Virus record (IMG/VR): IMGVR_UViG_3300044994_000233
Coordinates: 1 to 34,482 of that record
Origin: a virus
Length of the DNA: 34,482 nucleotides
Strand: one strand, 5' to 3'
Shown: piece by piece, positions 4,201 through 31,632 of the stretch
Layout: every line of letters begins with the position of its first letter
How positions within the stretch are numbered: the stretch's first letter is position 1
The notes under the pieces: generated by a model
Databases searched by the model: none
Seen by the model: only the letters and a program-made list of their open reading frames with translations
What the model was told of the DNA's origin: nothing
Program-made: the position numbers and the translations under genes

Positions 4201-4967
4201 ACACCGTGAAAATAGGGCGATTACGTTTCGGCGTTCCTGCTGATTGGGCAAGCATTAGCCTATCCGACAGAAGAGCTGTGTGCCGTATCCTATACGGCGA
4301 CAGTAGGAATTACCCTATCACGCGACTGTTTTATGCTATGTCTGGCATTCGACGCAGACCACTGTTTTGCATCTGGTGGCAGTTGGCGGTAGGTACAGAC
4401 GACCGCGAGTTTGTATCGCTGAAAATAACATCTTTCATCGGACGCAAGGTACTGCCGGACAAGGAAGGCAAACGCCTTTTTGTTGCGCCTGAACGCTTGT
4501 TGTTCATTCAGTTCATCCGCATACATGAACTGATGGAAAACAGTAAAAGCGATGAACAAGCCTTGCGCAGCACCTGTGCACGCATGTTGTCTGTGTACTT
4601 CTTGCCGGAAGGAGCTACTCTTTACAATGATGCGCAAGCGAGCGCACTGGAAGAACTATTTGTGCAGTTAGACACGCCATTTCTATTCAAATATGCAGAG
4701 CAGGTAAGCAATGAATTTGTGCGCATTTGCAATCAGTTTTCGCGGATTTTCAAAGGCGAACCCGGAGCAGCCAAAGAATCGCAAGCTACCGACGTAGCTT
4801 CGCAATGGATGGAACTTGCGCGCAACCAAGCAGGTTCGCCGCTGTATATCGAGCAAATTTTACAGTTGCCTGCGGAGGTTGTACTGTTCGATTTGCAAGG
4901 ACGCATAGATGACTATCATAGGATTAAAAATCAAATAAAACATGACCGCTATCGCCCTGATTGCTAA
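4191..4967 (+). CDS. hypothetical phage protein
   Basis: A 258-residue protein (MAINTVKIGRLRFGVPADWASISLSDRRAVCRILYG...). A helical centre contains RLLFIQFIRIHELMENSKSDEQALRSTCARMLSVYFLPEG, followed by AQASALEELFVQLDTPFLFKYAEQVSNEFVRICNQF. The 'helical bundle, loop, helical bundle' look is seen in small phage minor-head proteins, but I do not recognise a family. It overlaps the upstream gene by 10 bases and the downstream gene by 26, so it is part of the tightly packed portal operon. Confidence 0.6.
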   Translation: MAINTVKIGRLRFGVPADWASISLSDRRAVCRILYGDSRNYPITRLFYAMSGIRRRPLFCIWWQLAVGTDDREFVSLKITSFIGRKVLPDKEGKRLFVAPERLLFIQFIRIHELMENSKSDEQALRSTCARMLSVYFLPEGATLYNDAQASALEELFVQLDTPFLFKYAEQVSNEFVRICNQFSRIFKGEPGAAKESQATDVASQWMELARNQAGSPLYIEQILQLPAEVVLFDLQGRIDDYHRIKNQIKHDRYRPDC

Positions 4968-24708: not shown

Positions 24709-24751
24709 ATGTCCAAAAGTTTGGACATTTCAAAAATCCATTATATCTTTG
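24709..24751 (+). promoter_or_regulatory. promoter with operator driving the accessory cassette
   Basis: TTTGG (24720-24724) is a -33 element and TATCTTTG (24744-24751) an exact -7 element (TAnnTTTG) with a 19-base gap, a near ideal Bacteroidota promoter. A perfect inverted repeat, ATGTCCAAA (24709-24717) and TTTGGACAT (24720-24728), covers the -33 box, so a bound repressor would silence the operon 24812-28206. Confidence 0.7.
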
Positions 24752-24811
24752 TATCAGAAATCAATTAGGAAATAAACCGGGGGACAGCGGTAAATCTGAA
24801 CGAATGAGGTT

Positions 24812-25174
24812 ATGAAATTAGAATTTAATTTCGAAAACAGAAAAGGGTACGTGTATTTTTGGCGTCGCGGTAGCGGCACATACATAGCCGAAATACATAA
24901 GTTTAACAAAGCAAACTCCAAAAAAATAGAAATCAGCATCCCAGAGGACGCGGATGACGATATACGAAATCTTTTACTGAACGAAAGCGTGAATCGCTCT
25001 TACTATTTCGGCGAGAAACTTAACTACGAAGACTTCCCCTCCGATGAGGAGTGGGAAGCAGCCGCAAACGCTGCCGATGAGGCGGCAACAGAGGAGGCCT
25101 GGGAATATCTCGAAAACATATTGAAGGAAGAAATAAAAACCCCCGTAGTGCGCAGACACTACTGGGAAAAATAA
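24812..25174 (+). CDS. small acidic hypothetical protein
   Basis: A 120-residue protein (MKLEFNFENRKGYVYFWRRGSGTYIAEIHKFN...). The first half is beta-rich with basic patches; the second half is very acidic (DFPSDEEWEAAANAADEAATEEAWEYLENILKEE). The fold is not recognised. An acidic surface is typical of DNA mimics and of many anti-CRISPR or anti-restriction proteins; given its neighbours that is worth testing but unproven. First gene of the cassette. Confidence 0.55.
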   Translation: MKLEFNFENRKGYVYFWRRGSGTYIAEIHKFNKANSKKIEISIPEDADDDIRNLLLNESVNRSYYFGEKLNYEDFPSDEEWEAAANAADEAATEEAWEYLENILKEEIKTPVVRRHYWEK

Positions 25175-25178
25175 ACAT

Positions 25179-25239
25179 AGGGTTGCCGAACCCTTAAAAA
25201 ATCGGACGGGGGTTGCCGAAAACCCGAAACAGAGTAGGC
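25179..25239. repeat. leader repeat: hairpins GGGTTGCCGAA...CCC with GAGTAGGC, copy A
   Basis: First AGGGTTGCCGAACCCT (25179-25194), a short hairpin, then a 34-base unit at 25206-25239 made of ACGGGGGTTGCCGAAAACCCG and AAACAGAGTAGGC. The same unit recurs at 25804-25839 and 26266-26299, each time before a gene. In RNA it forms GGGTT-gccgaa-AACCC. Copy A also precedes a longer leader up to the start at 25298. Confidence 0.7.
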
Positions 25240-25297
25240 AAGGGACGTAGCCCACGCCCTGCATGGTGCGAAAGTGGGTAGTAAAACAATTTAAAAA

Positions 25298-25752
25298 ATG
25301 GCAAAAATTTTCTGCAATTACAGGCTCTCTTTCAGTGAAGAGATAGTATGGCAAGCATGCAACGGGGCGACCCGTCAGAGATTAAAAGTAATCAACAAAA
25401 CAGCCCTTAAAGGGCAAATGGCCGTTTTTGAGGCCAGCATCGGAACTTATGAAAATGCCCGTTCATCTTATTTATTCCTTAACCCCGCCAAAAACGGGGA
25501 CACTCGGGTGTTAGGGATGTTTTTGAATGCAGACTACGGGTTCACCCTCAGAGAGGGTAAGGAGCTGTTCTCCGCCTCATCAGTTGGCGGGTACGGCAAC
25601 TCCGAATCCAGAATGGGCATTTATGAGGTAGGGGCACTTGTAGAAGTGCATACCTACAAAAACGCCGTCCGTCATCTTTTTATCGTTTGACAGAAACAGG
25701 TTGGGTCGAAGTGCCCAACCACGAGGTTATAGAATCTATTGCCGAAATATAA
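25298..25752 (+). CDS. small hypothetical protein with a frameshift near its end
   Basis: The uninterrupted frame gives 130 residues (MAKIFCNYRLSFSEEIVWQACNGATRQRLKV...) and ends at a TGA at 25690. In the -1 frame the next 20 codons read LTETGWVEVPNHEVIESIAEI and end at TAA 25750-25752, directly before CCTCGC and the terminator. The next gene also ends TAA-CCTCGC before a like terminator, so the end at 25752 seems the original one. The shift lies at a run of five T (about 25676-25681): a real one-base deletion, an assembly error, or programmed slippage. The protein is rich in beta segments, with no known motif. Confidence 0.55.
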
Positions 25753-25758
25753 CCTCGC

Positions 25759-25799
25759 CCCCTTGCCGCCCTCACGGGAGTAACGGCAAGGGGTTTTTT
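25759..25799 (+). terminator. strong terminator, copy 1
   Basis: CCCCTTGCCG (25759-25768) pairs with CGGCAAGGGG (25784-25793); a small inner hairpin lies in the loop and TTTTTT follows. The same arms recur at 26217-26254. Downstream, copy B of the leader repeat starts within 5 bases of the T run. Confidence 0.8.
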
Positions 25800-25803
25800 G
25801 TTT

Positions 25804-25839
25804 ACGGGGGTTGCCGAAAACCCGTATAAAAGAGTAGGC
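25804..25839. repeat. leader repeat, copy B
   Basis: ACGGGGGTTGCCGAAAACCCG followed by TATAAAAGAGTAGGC: same hairpin as copy A, with small changes between the hairpin and the GAGTAGGC box. It sits between terminator copy 1 and the gene at 25863, 24 bases before the ATG. Confidence 0.75.
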
Positions 25840-25862
25840 GCAACTTTTAAAAAATACAAAAA

Positions 25863-26204
25863 ATGGAAGAATCTTTCGTTACGGAGGTGTCTCATAAACA
25901 CCTCTATATGATTAAAGAAGACTTTTTCAAACAGTCATTTTCCTTCCCCAACGGCGGCGGTTACATGCTTGCCCGCGTTGAGGCAGTCGATTGCAACACC
26001 CCAGAGCGGGTGTATGCGCAGATTGTGTTGAAAGAAGGAATCTTTAATTCCCGCGTTTTTTTGTTCGCGGGTAAAAGAACCCAGCTGGAAGAATGGTTAA
26101 ACCAACAAGGTATAGAATTTGACGCATTCAAAAACTTAGAAATCGACGTACCATTTGTAGTTAGCGGTCGTGCCCTGTATATGATAGGGTACTTAAACGA
26201 CTAA
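25863..26204 (+). CDS. small hypothetical protein
   Basis: A 113-residue protein (MEESFVTEVSHKHLYMIKEDFFKQSFSFPNGGGYML...). Its leader carries leader repeat copy B and its stop (TAA CCTCGC) is followed by terminator copy 2. Not recognised, and not clearly related to the neighbouring gene at 25298, although the flanks are almost identical. Its position in a repeat-bounded cassette suggests it is an exchangeable accessory gene. Confidence 0.55.
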   Translation: MEESFVTEVSHKHLYMIKEDFFKQSFSFPNGGGYMLARVEAVDCNTPERVYAQIVLKEGIFNSRVFLFAGKRTQLEEWLNQQGIEFDAFKNLEIDVPFVVSGRALYMIGYLND

Positions 26205-26216
26205 CCTCGCTCCGCA

Positions 26217-26261
26217 CCCCTTGCCGCCGTCAACACGGGCAAAACGGCAAGGGGTTTTTTT
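26217..26261 (+). terminator. strong terminator, copy 2
   Basis: CCCCTTGCCG (26217-26226) pairs with CGGCAAGGGG (26245-26254), with a run of seven T. Almost the same as copy 1 in the arms but different in the loop, which suggests the stems are conserved by selection or by exchange of the flanks. Confidence 0.8.
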
Positions 26262-26265
26262 GTTT

Positions 26266-26299
26266 ACGGGGGTTGCCGAAAACCCGAAACAGAGTAGGC
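26266..26299. repeat. leader repeat, copy C
   Basis: ACGGGGGTTGCCGAAAACCCG plus AAACAGAGTAGGC, identical in its 34 bases to copy A at 25206-25239. It precedes the HTH gene (26332) and the Cas12f-like gene, just after terminator copy 2. If RNA from upstream has to pass the terminator, this hairpin could act as an antitermination (put-like) site, an inference only. Confidence 0.75.
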
Positions 26300-26331
26300 G
26301 TATATTAGATGAAGAAGATGAAAAGCTATAT

Positions 26332-26676
26332 ATGACGCAAATCATAAAATATTTAAAACGAATAAAGCCGCTCGTAAGCATTAACAAGCTCGAACGGCTT
26401 GCAAATATCCCACAGGGGACTTTAAACAAAGCATTTTCGGGGGGAAGGGCACTACCAGATGTTCACGTATTCCCACTCATGAAAGTGCTTATACGCATTT
26501 TAGGTGTAGTCGCCATCGATAAATGGCGCTACACAGCCGAAGATGATGACACGGTCATCTTTGTAGAAAGAGATGTCAATGCGCAAGAACGAGAGTTCTA
26601 CGATGCAATCGGTATAGCAGAGCTGCTTAATGTTGATGATAACACAAATAAAACTACTAATGATTATAACTCGTAA
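26332..26676 (+). CDS. HTH protein upstream of the Cas12f-like gene
   Basis: A 114-residue protein (MTQIIKYLKRIKPLVSINKLERLANIPQGTLNKAFSGGRAL...). The segment LVSINKLERLANIPQGTLNKAFSGGRALPDVHVFPLMKVLIRIL is a typical XRE-like HTH of Bacteroidota phages. The rest is acidic (AEDDDTVIFVERDVNAQERE). It overlaps the Cas12f-like start by 17 bases, so the two proteins are co-produced and might act together, for example as autoregulator or guide-complex partner. A frame extension upstream crosses the leader repeat and is rejected. Confidence 0.65.
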   Translation: MTQIIKYLKRIKPLVSINKLERLANIPQGTLNKAFSGGRALPDVHVFPLMKVLIRILGVVAIDKWRYTAEDDDTVIFVERDVNAQEREFYDAIGIAELLNVDDNTNKTTNDYNS

Positions 26677-27724
26677 AATCGAACTCTACGCAGGCAAGCA
26701 GGAATTTTGGGATTGGTTTCACAAAATTCGATATGCCGTGCCGCGCATGATGAATGCAATGATGCAAGAACTCATCGCAGCAGAAGCACTTGTATCCGCC
26801 GAAGCTCATAAACACGGCGCAAACAAAGATGCTTGGCAAGCTGCACGCAACGCTGCTTTTGGCCCGGAAAGCCTGTTCAACACCAGCAATCAAAACGTTG
26901 CGTACAGAGCAAGCAAGGCATTCGAGGACGACGTACCATCCGTTATCCGAAGCGCAGCAGCATCTGCGGTCTGGCAGCGATTTAAACAAGATGCGAATAA
27001 AGTACAAAAATTAGAAGCAACATATAGCTTCTACAAACTCTCTTCGCCAATTCCTTTCACTAAATCAGCCATTACACAAATAAATGAAGAAGGATTTACA
27101 GCCTTCAAACACGACTTCAAATTTGTATTTGGTGCAGATAAGCAAGGCAACAAATCAATTGTAAAAAAAATAATTTCAGGTGAGTATCAAATGTCCGACA
27201 GTGCGCTAAAATATGTGCGGAGAACAGGTCGCAAGCCCAAACTTTACCTGCTTCTAATTGTAAAACTGCCTGACGTGGAGAAACAGCCGCAAGAACGCAC
27301 TGCACAACTTGACATTTCACCATTTTGCCCTGTATTGTTCATTTTTGAAGGGAAAAGCATACCAATCGGGGATAGCTCAATCCTCATGCGCACAAGATTG
27401 AAGTTTGATGCACGCCGTCAGCAATTGCAAAAGAGTGTAACCACTGCCAAAGGCGGACATGGACGTAAAAGAAAAAACAAAGCAGCATGGGCATTCGCAG
27501 ATGCAGAAAAGCGATTTGCAGACACTTTTACGCATCAAATAACAGCCAAAGTTATTGAAAGATTGCAGACGCAAAGAATTGGCAAACTCAGTATATTACC
27601 CATTAATGTGCCTGAAAATTTTGATTTGAACGAAATTATCAGGTATGGTAGCTACAATAATATTGTGGAAAAATTGCGCTACAAATGCGCTAAATGTGGA
27701 ATTGATTTGGTAGATTTGCGTTAA
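26660..27724 (+). CDS. Cas12f-like RNA-guided protein, C-terminally truncated, nuclease-dead type
   Basis: A 354-residue protein from the ATG at 26660 (MIITRKIELYAGK), the start form of Cas12f and TnpB proteins. Residues 168-185 (VKKIISGEYQMSDSALK) and 245-276 (LKFDARRQQLQ with GHGRK at 266-270) match the Cas12f layout before and in the bridge helix. The RuvC-I block is LDIS with Asp218 where Cas12f has the metal Asp. The RuvC-II position (around residues 309-315, KLSILPI) has no glutamate, and the protein ends at YKCAKCGIDLVDLR, before the zinc ribbon and RuvC-III Asp. The remaining 86 bases before the array are too few to encode them. So it should bind a guide RNA and DNA but not cut. Family placement is by my own alignment of motifs; it is shorter than Cas12f (400-700). 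Confidence 0.8.
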   Translation: MIITRKIELYAGKQEFWDWFHKIRYAVPRMMNAMMQELIAAEALVSAEAHKHGANKDAWQAARNAAFGPESLFNTSNQNVAYRASKAFEDDVPSVIRSAAASAVWQRFKQDANKVQKLEATYSFYKLSSPIPFTKSAITQINEEGFTAFKHDFKFVFGADKQGNKSIVKKIISGEYQMSDSALKYVRRTGRKPKLYLLLIVKLPDVEKQPQERTAQLDISPFCPVLFIFEGKSIPIGDSSILMRTRLKFDARRQQLQKSVTTAKGGHGRKRKNKAAWAFADAEKRFADTFTHQITAKVIERLQTQRIGKLSILPINVPENFDLNEIIRYGSYNNIVEKLRYKCAKCGIDLVDLR

Positions 27725-27810
27725 GTGGCTATTCGCATTAGCCTTATGGTGAGGTCAGCCGAAAGGCGCAGGCACTCACTGAGGTACACAATTGCAACTA
27801 TAATCGCAGG
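27725..27810 (+). ncRNA. candidate structured RNA (tracrRNA- or scaffold-like) between the Cas12f-like gene and the array
   Basis: This 86-base gap can form two hairpins: GGCTA (27727-27731) with TAGCC (27739-27743), and GTGAG (27749-27753) with CTCAC (27775-27779), the latter enclosing GCC-GAAA-GGC (27758-27767), a GAAA tetraloop. Cas12f systems carry a tracrRNA in just this place. A strong anti-repeat is missing: only GGTAC near 27784 and TCGCA near 27804 can pair with parts of the repeat. The RNA might serve as a scaffold for the protein without a long anti-repeat, or be a leader only. Confidence 0.4.
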
Positions 27811-28206
27811 GTAGTAATGCAGCTTTTTGATAAAGTACCATTGCGACCAGCAAAGGCTAAATACAGGGAGTTTGATACACGAGTAGTAATGCAGCTTTTT
27901 GATAAAGTACCATTGCGACGCTTTAACAGGCTTGCGCATATCTGACGTACTGAGTAGTAATGCAGCTTTTTGATAAAGTACCATTGCGACGAATTTTCAA
28001 ATTACCAGAGCATTACGCTTGCGGAGTAGTAATGCAGCTTTTTGATAAAGTACCATTGCGACCAAAGATACTATGTTTGCCGTTAAAGATGCTGTTAGTA
28101 GTAATGCAGCTTTTTGATGAAGTACCATTGCGACGAATTTTCAAATTACCAGAGCATTACGCTTGCGGAGTAGTAATGCAGCTTTTTGATAAAGTACCAT
28201 TGCGAC
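27811..28206 (+). CRISPR. CRISPR array: six 37-nt repeats, five spacers
   Basis: Repeats at 27811-27847, 27883-27919, 27954-27990, 28026-28062, 28098-28134 and 28170-28206. They start GTAGTAATGCAGC and end AAAGTACCATTGCGAC. Spacers are 35, 34, 35, 35 and 35 nt. Repeat 5 differs by one base (A to G at 28119). Spacers 3 (27991-28025) and 5 (28135-28169) are identical. Each repeat folds on itself: GTAATG with CATTGC, CTTT with AAAG, ends GT with AC. Spacer 2 (27920-27953) reads ALTGLRISDVL, a tyrosine-recombinase motif. No cas1, cas2 or cas4 gene is nearby. The array ends 4 bases before the stop of the opposing tape-measure gene. Confidence 0.9.
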
Positions 28207-28209
28207 ATT

Positions 28210-31200
28210 TCATATCCCCCCAATCGCCTCTATATCCGCCTTTTTAGCTTCAAAATTCTTAAAATCTTCGTGAACGAAGACGACTTTAAGCTCGCGCTTC
28301 ATTGCAACAATTTCACTACGAAGCGCTTGCACCTCGCGGATAAGCGAACTCATCAGGCTATTGTCTTGCTCGGGTAGGGTAGGGGCGATGGTACTACCAG
28401 CCGCAGGCGCACCCTGTCGGCGCATGGACTCGGCAATATTGGCAAGCGCCGCACCGGACGGTGTGCGAAGTAACCAAGCAGGCATCACGTACTCGTTTGC
28501 ATGGACAGTGCCAACGGCTTTACTGTCGTCAGCAGCTTTATCTGTAAAGCCACCACTTTTATATCCGCCCGTTACTTCGCGTGCAGCAGGTGCTGGCGGT
28601 TCTGGGGCGCTTGCCAAAATCTCCTTCGCACGATTTATATTCGCAAAAACAGTGGCTACCGTCGTGGCGATTGCCGCTAAGTTGCCCGGAAACGGCACAG
28701 CCATAGCACTTGCGATGCCCGAACTGATTGCCTTTGCCGTATCAATCGCAATCTGTCCGATGGCAAGTGCTTTACCAAAGCGATTGTTTTCAGCAGCCGA
28801 ATTGTTAATAGCCTGATTGATTGCTTGCAGACTACGACCGACACTTGCCGCAGCTTCTAACCGCGCTTGTGTGATGCGCTCGCGCTCCGCAGCTACACGC
28901 TTTTCTTCGCGCAACTGTGCCTCGTTCGCCTCAATTTGAATAGCTAACAACCGGTTTTGTATCTCTTTCCGCTGTATCTCAGTCAAATTGCCAAACTCTG
29001 CATCCAACTCCAATTTGGCAAGTAAAAATTGCTTCTCAGAGTCAAGTTCCTGCTGCTTAAATTCAAATTCAATTGCCGCCAGTGCAGCTTCGCGCTCTTC
29101 AACCGACAGTTTTTCATTTGCCCACAGTGCAGCTTGCTTTTGCAGAAGCGAATTGTTAGCCTCTAACAAACTCAAATCGTAGTAGGCTTTTTCCCTTTGC
29201 AAACGCTCGTCTATTTCATTCTGACGCATTTGCATGAGCAATTCGCTTTGCTCTTGCTCACGCAGCAAGCGCTCATCCTCGTATTTACGCGTCAGTGCGT
29301 CAATTTCTCGCTGTAATTTTTCCTCGATTAGTAGCCGCTGCGTTGCCTTTTGTTCCTCCGAGCCTTTCAGCTCAGCCAACTGATTATCCGCATGCAAGCT
29401 AAGCAAAGCAAGTTCTTTATCATAACCATCCTGCATCAGCTCTATGCGCATCCTCTGGATTGCTTTTGCCGCTTCCTGCTCTGCTTTCAGCCGCTCTTCT
29501 TGCTGCCTTTTGAGTTCTGCATTGTTGCCGCCTTTTTTACCGTCGTTTCTTTCCAACTCCAATTGCCGCTTTCTGTTCGCTTCGGCAATGGCTTTGTCTC
29601 GCGCTTCTTTTTCCTCTTTGCTCATGCCTTTACCCATGTCGCGCGGCAATTTCGCCGTGCTGCCACCCAACAATGGATTGTTTTTGGGGTCGTACATGAC
29701 TTTTTTGGCATCCTGCATCTCCTCTTCCAACCTATCTTTCATGCCTTTGCCAAACGCACCCGCAATCCTGTCGCCGGCATTGGTGAACAGGTCGCCAAGC
29801 GCTTTGAAATCGAATGTGTAAAGCGCCTTGTAGAGTTCATACACGATTTTCGCTCCTTCTTTAAAGGCTTCCCAAAGCCCTACAACTTTCATCCGAAATA
29901 GTTGTGACTCTTTCCAAGCGGTGTAGAATGCAGCCGTAAGCGCTGCCACCGCTGCAATGACAATGCCTATCGGGTTGGCAGTCAATGCCGCGTTGAGTGC
30001 CCATTGAGCCATCGTTGCAGCGCGTGTGGCTATCATCTTTGCTTTTTCAGCCGCTGCCAAGCGAAGCGCATTCGCAGCTGCGGCTATTGACTGCGCATTG
30101 AAGGTTACTAACGCTACGCCAAGCGCGTAAAACCACTGCTGATTTTCCCGCACAAATTTCGGCAGTTCCCGAAGACCGTCAATCATCAGCAAAATCAACT
30201 TGATGCCCTGAGTAAGGGCAGGCAATATTAAATTTCCTAACGAAGCAACAAAACCGTCTATTTTCTTTTTCGCTTTCTCGTATTGCGCAGCAAAATTTTC
30301 ATTTTTGATGTTGAACTCATCAACAATAGATGTATTTTTCTGAAATTCTTCCGCCGCCAAACGCTGTTTCTCGCGTACCAAGTCTGTTTGGTTAGCCAGC
30401 AACGCCATCACCTTAGTAGCCTCTTGGCTGCCGATCTTCATCCGTTCAAGCGCTTTGGCTACTTGGTCACTGTCTAAGCCCTTGAAACTCTCCGCCAATC
30501 GCAAAAACATTTCGTTGGGGTCGCTGTTCAGCAAATCTTTAAACTCTTGCTCGGTAATGCCGATTTGGGCAGCGAAAGCCGCTGTCTCTTTACCGGCAGT
30601 AAGCAAAATATTCGAGATACCGCCAGAAGAGATTTCAGCCGAAAGCCCCAACTCTTGAAAAGCTGCCCCCAATGCAAGCGTTTGTTCAAGGCTCGGCGCT
30701 AAATTATCCCCTAACTGCCCGATACGTGCGGCAAACTCCGCTACTACCGGCGCAGTAGCCGTGCCGGCACTGCCCAGCGCATTCAGAGCAGAACCAATAC
30801 GCGACATTGCCTCGCCTGCTTTCAAATTCTTTGTCTCTTGGAATAACTGTTTAAGTGTGCCCAGCTCCTTTGCCGCCTGCTCCGCTCCGCCGGTAAACTC
30901 ATCGCCAAGCGCTACAACGATTTGGTCGGTCGCTTGGACAAAGCCTAAAATATCCTCTTTCGCAATGCCGATTTGCCCTGCTACTTTGGCGATTTCGCGC
31001 AAATCAGATGACGATGTGCGTGTATCAATCTTGCTCAACTCCTGATTTAATGCCTCAACTTCTTTCAGCGTTAGCCCTGTTGTCTTTTGAATGTCAGCAA
31101 ATTGGTCGGATATTTTAGCGGCATTGTCTAATACGCCGACCACAAATGCGCCAAAATTTTGAGCCAGCGTCGAAATAACATCACCCGCAACAGTTGCTGC

Positions 31201-31632
31201 GGCAAACACGCCAAACTCGCGAAAGCTATCTTTGAATCTCTCCCACGACGTGCGCGTGTCGTTTATATCTGCCTTGCGCGCGCGTAACTCCGCCCCGACT
31301 TCTTGCAGCTTTTTTTTGACAGCCTCATACTCGGCTGTGCCTTTGGTCATATTGCTGAGAGCCATATTCAGCTCACGCTGCTGCGCGGTGAGTTGCTTGG
31401 TTGTCATGCCCGTAATGCCGATTTCTTTGCGCAGCGATGACATGCGCGATTCCACCTCTTTGAGCTTCGCATTTTCGCGCACGTAATCTTTCGTTCCACG
31501 GGTCATTTTTGCCATTTCCGCGCGAATATCTTTCGCTTCCATCTCCAAACGCCCCAGCTCGTTGATAGCCTGTTTGCCATCGACCTCAACGGATGTGCGT
31601 ACTACGTCTTCAAATACTGCCATTTTTACCAA
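28210..31632 (-). CDS. tail tape measure protein
   Basis: A 1140-residue leftward protein. The N-terminus (residues 1-130) is coiled-coil (ELGRLEMEAKDIRAEMAKM) with a Cterm-like TMP region that reads KISDQFADIQKTTGLTLKEVEALNQELSKIDTRTSSSDLREIAKVAGQIG, typical of phage tape-measure families. A hydrophobic stretch around residues 500-590 may cross or line the membrane during DNA entry. The C-terminus has long charged coils (EREAALAAIEFEFKQQELD). Its length should set the tail length, about 170 nm by the usual 0.15 nm per residue. The ATG at 31632 (MVKMAVFED) overlaps the preceding gene by 23 bases; ATG 31623 is an alternative. It is the last gene of the tail module. Confidence 0.9.
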   Translation of the reverse strand: MVKMAVFEDVVRTSVEVDGKQAINELGRLEMEAKDIRAEMAKMTRGTKDYVRENAKLKEVESRMSSLRKEIGITGMTTKQLTAQQRELNMALSNMTKGTAEYEAVKKKLQEVGAELRARKADINDTRTSWERFKDSFREFGVFAAATVAGDVISTLAQNFGAFVVGVLDNAAKISDQFADIQKTTGLTLKEVEALNQELSKIDTRTSSSDLREIAKVAGQIGIAKEDILGFVQATDQIVVALGDEFTGGAEQAAKELGTLKQLFQETKNLKAGEAMSRIGSALNALGSAGTATAPVVAEFAARIGQLGDNLAPSLEQTLALGAAFQELGLSAEISSGGISNILLTAGKETAAFAAQIGITEQEFKDLLNSDPNEMFLRLAESFKGLDSDQVAKALERMKIGSQEATKVMALLANQTDLVREKQRLAAEEFQKNTSIVDEFNIKNENFAAQYEKAKKKIDGFVASLGNLILPALTQGIKLILLMIDGLRELPKFVRENQQWFYALGVALVTFNAQSIAAAANALRLAAAEKAKMIATRAATMAQWALNAALTANPIGIVIAAVAALTAAFYTAWKESQLFRMKVVGLWEAFKEGAKIVYELYKALYTFDFKALGDLFTNAGDRIAGAFGKGMKDRLEEEMQDAKKVMYDPKNNPLLGGSTAKLPRDMGKGMSKEEKEARDKAIAEANRKRQLELERNDGKKGGNNAELKRQQEERLKAEQEAAKAIQRMRIELMQDGYDKELALLSLHADNQLAELKGSEEQKATQRLLIEEKLQREIDALTRKYEDERLLREQEQSELLMQMRQNEIDERLQREKAYYDLSLLEANNSLLQKQAALWANEKLSVEEREAALAAIEFEFKQQELDSEKQFLLAKLELDAEFGNLTEIQRKEIQNRLLAIQIEANEAQLREEKRVAAERERITQARLEAAASVGRSLQAINQAINNSAAENNRFGKALAIGQIAIDTAKAISSGIASAMAVPFPGNLAAIATTVATVFANINRAKEILASAPEPPAPAAREVTGGYKSGGFTDKAADDSKAVGTVHANEYVMPAWLLRTPSGAALANIAESMRRQGAPAAGSTIAPTLPEQDNSLMSSLIREVQALRSEIVAMKRELKVVFVHEDFKNFEAKKADIEAIGGI

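Follow-up and report, generated by a model that had tools for sequence, protein, structure and literature searches.

Sigma-associated dCas12f, a nuclease-deactivated form of Cas12f, reportedly drives RNA-guided transcription. Its full name is that of the PDB entry 9n9c (nuclease-deactivated Cas12f), and dCas12f is also contained in the entries 9n9m, 9n9o and 9n9q. Cas12m performs no cleavage; its protective effect comes from strong DNA binding, which silences transcription and for which its RuvC pocket is used (PMC10442227). Virus-encoded type V-like proteins near arrays of clustered regularly interspaced short palindromic repeats (CRISPR), with RuvC motifs missing and adaptation genes absent, are described in a report on landfill phages (PMC12607003). 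Naturally dead Cas12 proteins mark a route from RNA-guided cutting to RNA-guided gene control. Here, a truncated Cas12f gene with its own CRISPR array was analysed in the IMG/VR virus record IMGVR_UViG_3300044994_000233. The whole record, 34,482 bp from a Bacteroidota phage, is called the window. The locus is probably a type V-F-like phage CRISPR system without a nuclease and without adaptation, which would silence rival mobile elements by RNA guidance in a Cas12m-like manner.

The truncated Cas12f, its tracrRNA and its array

The locus consists of three adjoining features, and one of the spacers contains a promoter motif.

26660-27724, + strand: predicted nuclease-dead, C-terminally truncated Cas12f, 354 amino acids (aa) (PADLOC, phmmer, AlphaFold2, Foldseek)
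27725-27810, + strand: predicted trans-activating CRISPR RNA (tracrRNA), two hairpins (27725-27782) and then the anti-repeat GGTAC (27783-27787), which pairs with GTACC of the repeat
27811-28206, + strand: CRISPR array with five spacers of 34-35 nt between six 37-bp repeats (repeat analysis)
28063-28097, + strand: spacer 4 with TATGTTTGC, the Bacteroidota promoter -7 consensus (motif scan of spacers)

The protein begins with MIITRKIELY, and the same start is found in its homologues (MIITRK or MVITRK). A longer form of 364 aa, starting from the ATG at 26630, has no support. The Cas12f model of PADLOC matched residues 11-360 of the 364-aa form (8e-40). Several Cas12f structures were matched by sequence, and among these the phmmer alignment with dCas12f (PDB 9n9c, 2.7e-13) reached residue 363 of the 365-residue chain. 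In the alignment with full-length Cas12f, the RuvC-I residue Asp218 is kept within TAQLDISPF, and the RuvC-II glutamate is gone (KLSILPIN in the window versus INMELL or IQMERL in the full-length proteins). No residues of the window protein align to the zinc ribbon or to RuvC-III; the protein ends where both would begin. The structure was predicted by AlphaFold2 with an alignment of the fetched relatives, at a predicted local distance difference test score (pLDDT) of 87.9. The top two Foldseek matches in the PDB were 9n9m and 9n9c, these being one complex of dCas12f with guide RNA (gRNA) and DNA and one with gRNA. The E-values against Cas12f structures went down to 1e-20, and Cas12m structures stood far lower in the ranking. 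Cas12f sequence and predicted fold are retained through REC and the N-terminal part of RuvC. Only Asp218 of the D-E-D triad is left and the zinc ribbon is gone; therefore, the protein is regarded as a Cas12f homologue and not as an active type V-F effector. A sequence-only reading of the window had already recognised a Cas12f-like protein here by its start and its GHG motif (present as GGHGRKRK), with Asp218 kept and the RuvC-II glutamate, zinc ribbon and RuvC-III Asp lost. All of this was confirmed; the profile search and structure prediction, which had been named there as a check, placed the protein with Cas12f and dCas12f.

A sequencing error at the stop codon, hiding a complete C-terminus, was also considered. 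It was ruled out because the same end point recurs in about 70 Bacteroidota homologues, the solved dCas12f (PDB 9n9c/9n9m, 365 aa) among them. The protein is taken for a dead Cas12f because its end point and fold equal those of the solved dCas12f-gRNA-DNA complex, and loss of cutting is assumed because the catalytic motifs are altered or missing except for Asp218. As judged from these residues, the window protein is very probably unable to cut DNA. The kept Asp218 could serve binding, by analogy with the RuvC pocket of Cas12m.

The sequence-only reading overlooked that the stretch between gene and array is, on the comparative evidence, a tracrRNA. A covariance model (R1) was built from eight phage and mobile-genetic-element copies at four related loci (L006, L079, L105 and L106), with the window left out. 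Its alignment contains two helices with 14 pairs in all; bases pair in 97% of cells, 9 of the 14 pairs are changed on both sides, and no shuffle matched this covariation and pairing. The search of the window with this model gave a single match at 27725-27782 on the + strand (E = 0.022, 14.9 bits), exactly in the gap between the Cas12f gene and the array. Many further genes for Cas12f and dCas12f were likewise followed closely by a match. Every array-linked element is then followed by an anti-repeat complementary to the repeat of its own array. The mean energy of the anti-repeat/repeat duplex was -7.9 kcal/mol for true pairs and -5.3 kcal/mol for shuffled pairs (p = 0.0002). The window anti-repeat reached -8.1 kcal/mol with its own repeat and -4.4 kcal/mol or weaker with every other repeat. 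The tracr/repeat strand folded alone was unremarkable (z = -1.3), and an Rfam search of 27500-28300 gave no match. The support for the tracrRNA comes from covariation and the model search.

Dispersed tracr elements were observed at L079 (at 5866, 7240, 7790 and 8235) and at G004 (at 4235, 5648 and 6202). Some of them are followed by differing repeats with matching anti-repeats. Others end in GGACATCGAAG without a repeat, as if they were natural single-guide RNAs.

The repeat of the window array is GTAGTAATGCAGCTTTTTGATAAAGTACCATTGCGAC, and one of the six copies, standing between spacers 4 and 5, has a single change. Spacers 3 (27991-28025) and 5 (28135-28169) are identical; therefore, the array holds four different spacers. 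This identity is a detail added to the sequence-only reading, in which six repeats beginning 86 bp after the gene stop and the absence of adaptation genes had been correctly noted. Cas1 was not found in the record by a search that was positive in 10 of 14 control genomes. The identical spacers and the changed repeat suggest duplication inside an array without adaptation genes. The exact repeat sequence had no match in viral_contigs.

Sigma-associated and sigma-less relatives

When GTDB genomes were scanned with an alignment as the query, 80 loci were obtained. The majority encode proteins of 359-381 aa with the same end at the YKA.KAGIEL segment, and the RuvC-I Asp is replaced by Ser in nearly all of the truncated proteins. 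A sigma-factor-like gene, identified by weak matches to regions 4 and 2 of Sigma70, ends about 3 bp before the dead Cas12f gene in 68 of the 71 truncated loci from the scans. The three loci without it are the phage contig L006, L079 and one gene at a contig edge. When chromosomal loci only are counted, the sigma gene is directly upstream in 68 of 69, and the same was found in a separate Bacteroidota sample (7/7 further loci). In total, 75 of the 76 chromosomal dead Cas12f genes lie directly behind a sigma-factor gene, the exception being the one at the contig edge. Multi-repeat arrays near the gene were absent from all sigma-type loci. At some of them (L030, L036, L052, L061 and L073), often three to four tandem tracr-like scaffolds were seen downstream of the gene, so that a single dCas12f may work with several guides. 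In Empedobacter tilapiae (L024, 5986-7080), the dead Cas12f gene has an in-frame stop near codon 63 and is a possible pseudogene.

Dead Cas12f genes without a sigma gene were found on three further viral contigs, L006, L105 and L106, the last with a terminase gene 1 kb away. L139 lies in a prophage-like region of a Prevotellaceae-group genome, near genes for a RecE-like exonuclease, a DNA methyltransferase and a helicase. The region around L079, in a Prevotellaceae assembly, is element-like and includes a neighbouring gene for an exonuclease V/Dda-like helicase. All six sigma-less loci, i.e. the window and these five relatives, have tracr elements and CRISPR repeats, and all six are in phage, prophage or element-like contigs. 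No Sigma70_r2 match was obtained in the window record or in the three other viral records, and tblastn of the window with the dCas12f-linked sigma factor gave no significant match. Presence of sigma and mobile context separate completely except for the contig-edge gene (Fisher p = 2e-8, from loci that are related to each other). In viral_contigs and genome_contigs, searches with single-sequence patterns found no protein closely related to that of the window.

A full-length viral Cas12f beside an array (L020, IMGVR 3300032007_000052) was observed with RuvC-I Asp replaced by Ser, RuvC-II Glu replaced by Gln and RuvC-III kept. From these residues, it is apparently an independent inactivation.

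A truncated Cas12f with a phage array had looked undescribed from the sequence. For the protein, this did not hold: the truncated dead Cas12f is not new because the solved dCas12f (PDB 9n9c/9n9m) and about 70 Bacteroidota homologues share its end. What does appear new is the sigma-less, array-bearing phage form. In the literature covered, which was incomplete, we found no account of phage dead Cas12f proteins as a class with arrays and without sigma, nor of the basal position of such a class.

Maximum-likelihood trees were calculated with the C-terminal columns left out, and the root was not inferred. All of the truncated proteins, the window and the sigma-type clade included, fell on one side, apart from full-length Cas12f, with support of 92/90 in one sampling and 67/73 in another, earlier sampling. 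Without the window, 17 truncated proteins were grouped with support of 100/98. The sigma-type clade stands next to the L006 phage protein (99/97) and then to four other phage or element proteins, whose clade has support of 98/93. The window, on a long branch, came out deepest among the truncated proteins in this sampling and a related one. In these trees, the sigma-type clade lies within the sigma-less phage types; the exact place of the window is tentative, given its long branch and the unrooted tree. In the simplest story, cleavage would have been lost in array-bearing systems of mobile elements, followed by a single gain of the sigma partner. A wider proposal is put forward tentatively, as a possibility somewhat short of even: Bacteroidota phages would carry sigma-less, array-bearing dead Cas12f that silences rivals, the sigma-associated dCas12f activators would have arisen within this group, and the window would be its deepest known branch, with one catalytic Asp left.

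Spacer targets and the proposed function

In the proposed mechanism, the array would be transcribed with or near the operon. The tracrRNA would pair with each repeat and, together with the CRISPR RNA (crRNA), would form the guide of the truncated Cas12f. The complex would bind DNA matching the spacer and block transcription or early replication without cutting, as Cas12m does. The natural targets would probably be competing phages or mobile elements in the same host, and some spacers may be directed at promoters. The sequence-only reading had suggested that the protein is nuclease-dead and silences its targets, and this is still the best reading, although we infer both parts. Guide loading, DNA binding and silencing would follow from homology with the solved dCas12f and from analogy with Cas12m, and the role against rivals is suggested by the spacers of relatives, not by those of the window phage.

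Of the 26 spacers in the L006 phage, two have a match in the phage's own contig, each with two mismatches, and shuffled spacers never came below 8 mismatches. One match site is in the terminase large-subunit gene, and the other is where a phage gene of unknown function ends. Such near-self matches are expected if the spacers aim at close relatives. The G029 prophage has a single full spacer, and this agrees, but for one mismatch, with a site located 34 bp inside an early gene, of the DUF6291 family, on another element of the same assembly (chance about 2e-9). This element has an integrase gene and a DnaC-like loader gene beside the DUF6291 gene. From an active nuclease, damage to a chromosome with such a target would be expected. 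Therefore, the coexistence of the G029 spacer with a near-perfect target fits silencing over cutting, with the reservation that the contigs may stem from different strains. The spacers of relatives had no match in phages and plasmids, and those of G001 matched only the array itself in their own assembly.

Several points weigh against the silencing of rivals by a dead Cas12f. The nearest relatives are only about 27% identical to the window protein, and its branch in the trees is long. Asp218 is intact, and some residual chemistry is therefore conceivable from the sequence alone. The window spacers had no target in phages, in plasmids or in the window itself. Spacers 1 and 3, which were the ones scanned there, had none in viral_contigs, and for spacer 3 a set of 396 Bacteroidota genomes gave none either at up to 3 mismatches. 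Finally, the role against rivals is drawn from three spacer matches in two relatives, all of them mismatched and one in an assembly of possibly mixed strains.

It is unlikely, though to be taken seriously, that the protein is a TldR-like phage regulator, the spacers of which are fixed guides to host or phage promoters and not a record of rivals. The promoter motif TAnnTTTG is present in 4 of 40 spacers from sigma-less loci, all on the spacer strand and with window spacer 4 among them, where 0.85 would be expected (p = 0.009, suggestive). Only this form, set beforehand, was counted; a TAnnTTTGC form was noticed after the spacers had been inspected. With the -7 motif in spacers, a role in promoter repression is thus possible. 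The identity of spacers 3 and 5 and the adaptation genes not being found also fit a regulator, and a phage-encoded TldR regulates flagellin in this way (PMC13418256). However, the matched targets of relatives lie inside phage or element coding sequence and not in promoters. The 26 diverse L006 spacers are more like an immune record, and the window spacers have no match to their own phage within 11 mismatches.

A decaying remnant, i.e. a phage Cas12f that has lost its C-terminus and its function, is quite improbable. It would agree with the single, divergent locus found for this exact lineage and with the mere four different spacers. However, the 354-codon frame is intact, the tracrRNA has retained its fold and the anti-repeat still matches the repeat, a large family has the same truncation fixed, and the model confidence is high. 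Activation of transcription with a borrowed host sigma factor is suggested by the homology and common end residue with dCas12f, in view of the sigma-like gene directly upstream at the chromosomal loci. It is nevertheless very improbable: the viral records lack Sigma70_r2, in the trees, the association with sigma arises later than the split from every sigma-less form, and the matched targets lie within genes. A nuclease or nickase acting through Asp218 with the rest supplied by a partner can hardly be credited, because, although this residue is kept in the window and is replaced by S, T, Y, C or F in all other truncated relatives that were examined, the protein lacks the RuvC-II Glu and the entire zinc-ribbon/RuvC-III region, no adjoining partner gene with such a domain was seen, and the RuvC centre of Cas12m2 serves binding without cleavage (PMC10442227).

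The surrounding operon and comparison with known systems

The best matches of the window terminase and primase are temperate phages of Porphyromonas, Flavobacterium and Cellulophaga; a Microcystis phage also ranks high for the terminase. The operon runs from a Bacteroidota-type promoter through three small genes, a helix-turn-helix (HTH)-like gene and the Cas12f gene to the array.

24711-24726, + strand: perfect palindrome GTCCAAAAGTTTGGAC covering the -33 box, possible repressor operator
24720-24751, + strand: likely operon promoter of Bacteroidota type, TTTG-N20-TATCTTTG (pattern scan)
24812-25174, 25298-25690 and 25863-26204, + strand: three small genes of unknown function, the first ones in the Cas12f transcription unit (open reading frame list)
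25206-25239, 25804-25837 and 26266-26299: recurring 34-nt hairpin element ACGGGGGTTGCCGAAAACCCGAAACAGAGTAGGC, before the second, the third and the HTH genes
26332-26676, + strand: gene of an HTH-like protein, 114 aa, candidate operon regulator, 17-bp overlap with the start of the Cas12f gene

Only two such promoters were found on the + strand of the whole window by the pattern scan. The palindrome is exact, although 1.6 matches with up to 3 mismatches would be expected by chance. The three small genes gave no Pfam family above the cut-off. Two of the three hairpin copies stand directly after terminator-like CGGCAAGGGGTTTTTT sequences, and the element could be a shared leader or a regulatory RNA. 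The overlap of an HTH gene with the Cas12f gene had been reported from the sequence and is real; the HTH identity is weak (PHROG repressor, E = 0.022; no Pfam match). A conserved partnership of the HTH gene was considered and dropped because no relatives of the gene were found in phages or viral contigs; the upstream genes at other phage loci are also different. The tail tape measure gene (28210-31632, minus strand) is convergent to the operon and its end is 4 bp past the last repeat, so that array transcripts could read antisense into it.

Among the described systems, the landfill-phage effectors can be set beside the window by description only; in the part of the report that presents them, they are given as tree clades, without tracrRNA, targets or a link to dCas12f (PMC12607003). 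TldR, some forms of which are encoded on prophages, is alike in being a dead RuvC protein that serves a prophage as an RNA-guided repressor (PMC13418256). However, it is derived from TnpB and has a linked guide RNA, whereas the window has a multi-spacer array and a tracrRNA. The window protein does not belong to TldR, as its nearest structures and profiles are Cas12f and dCas12f, not TnpB. Cas12m (type V-M) resembles the mode proposed for the window in silencing by binding with a CRISPR array (PMC10442227). It is of another subtype, with about 600 aa; its guide is a single crRNA that needs no tracrRNA, and its RuvC is non-canonical but complete. The tracrRNA and the Foldseek ranking of Cas12m structures far below Cas12f place the window outside type V-M. 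Full-length Cas12f (type V-F) encoded by phages, for example L003, L004 and L012, is likewise compact and found with a tracrRNA and an array. In contrast, it has kept the D, E and D catalytic residues and the zinc ribbon.

The closest system is the sigma-associated dCas12f of Bacteroidota. It has about 360 aa, the same C-terminal end after the YK..GI segment, the same loss of the RuvC-II Glu and RuvC-III, the same fold and a homologous guide-RNA scaffold. On the other hand, dCas12f has Ser or a similar residue for the RuvC-I Asp, a sigma-like gene immediately upstream and no CRISPR array. The window protein, about 25% identical to it, has kept the Asp and is encoded without sigma, with a six-repeat array and a tracrRNA, in a phage genome. 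With 354 aa, it is a very small candidate for a programmable DNA-binding protein with its own tracrRNA. The sigma-less phage forms look like relatives of the ancestors of the known bacterial RNA-guided gene switches. If this is true, loss of cleavage preceded the sigma partner, and phages may use binding-type CRISPR interference against each other. The sigma-less, array-bearing phage form would then be a plausible intermediate between the cutting Cas12f and the sigma-partnered dCas12f.

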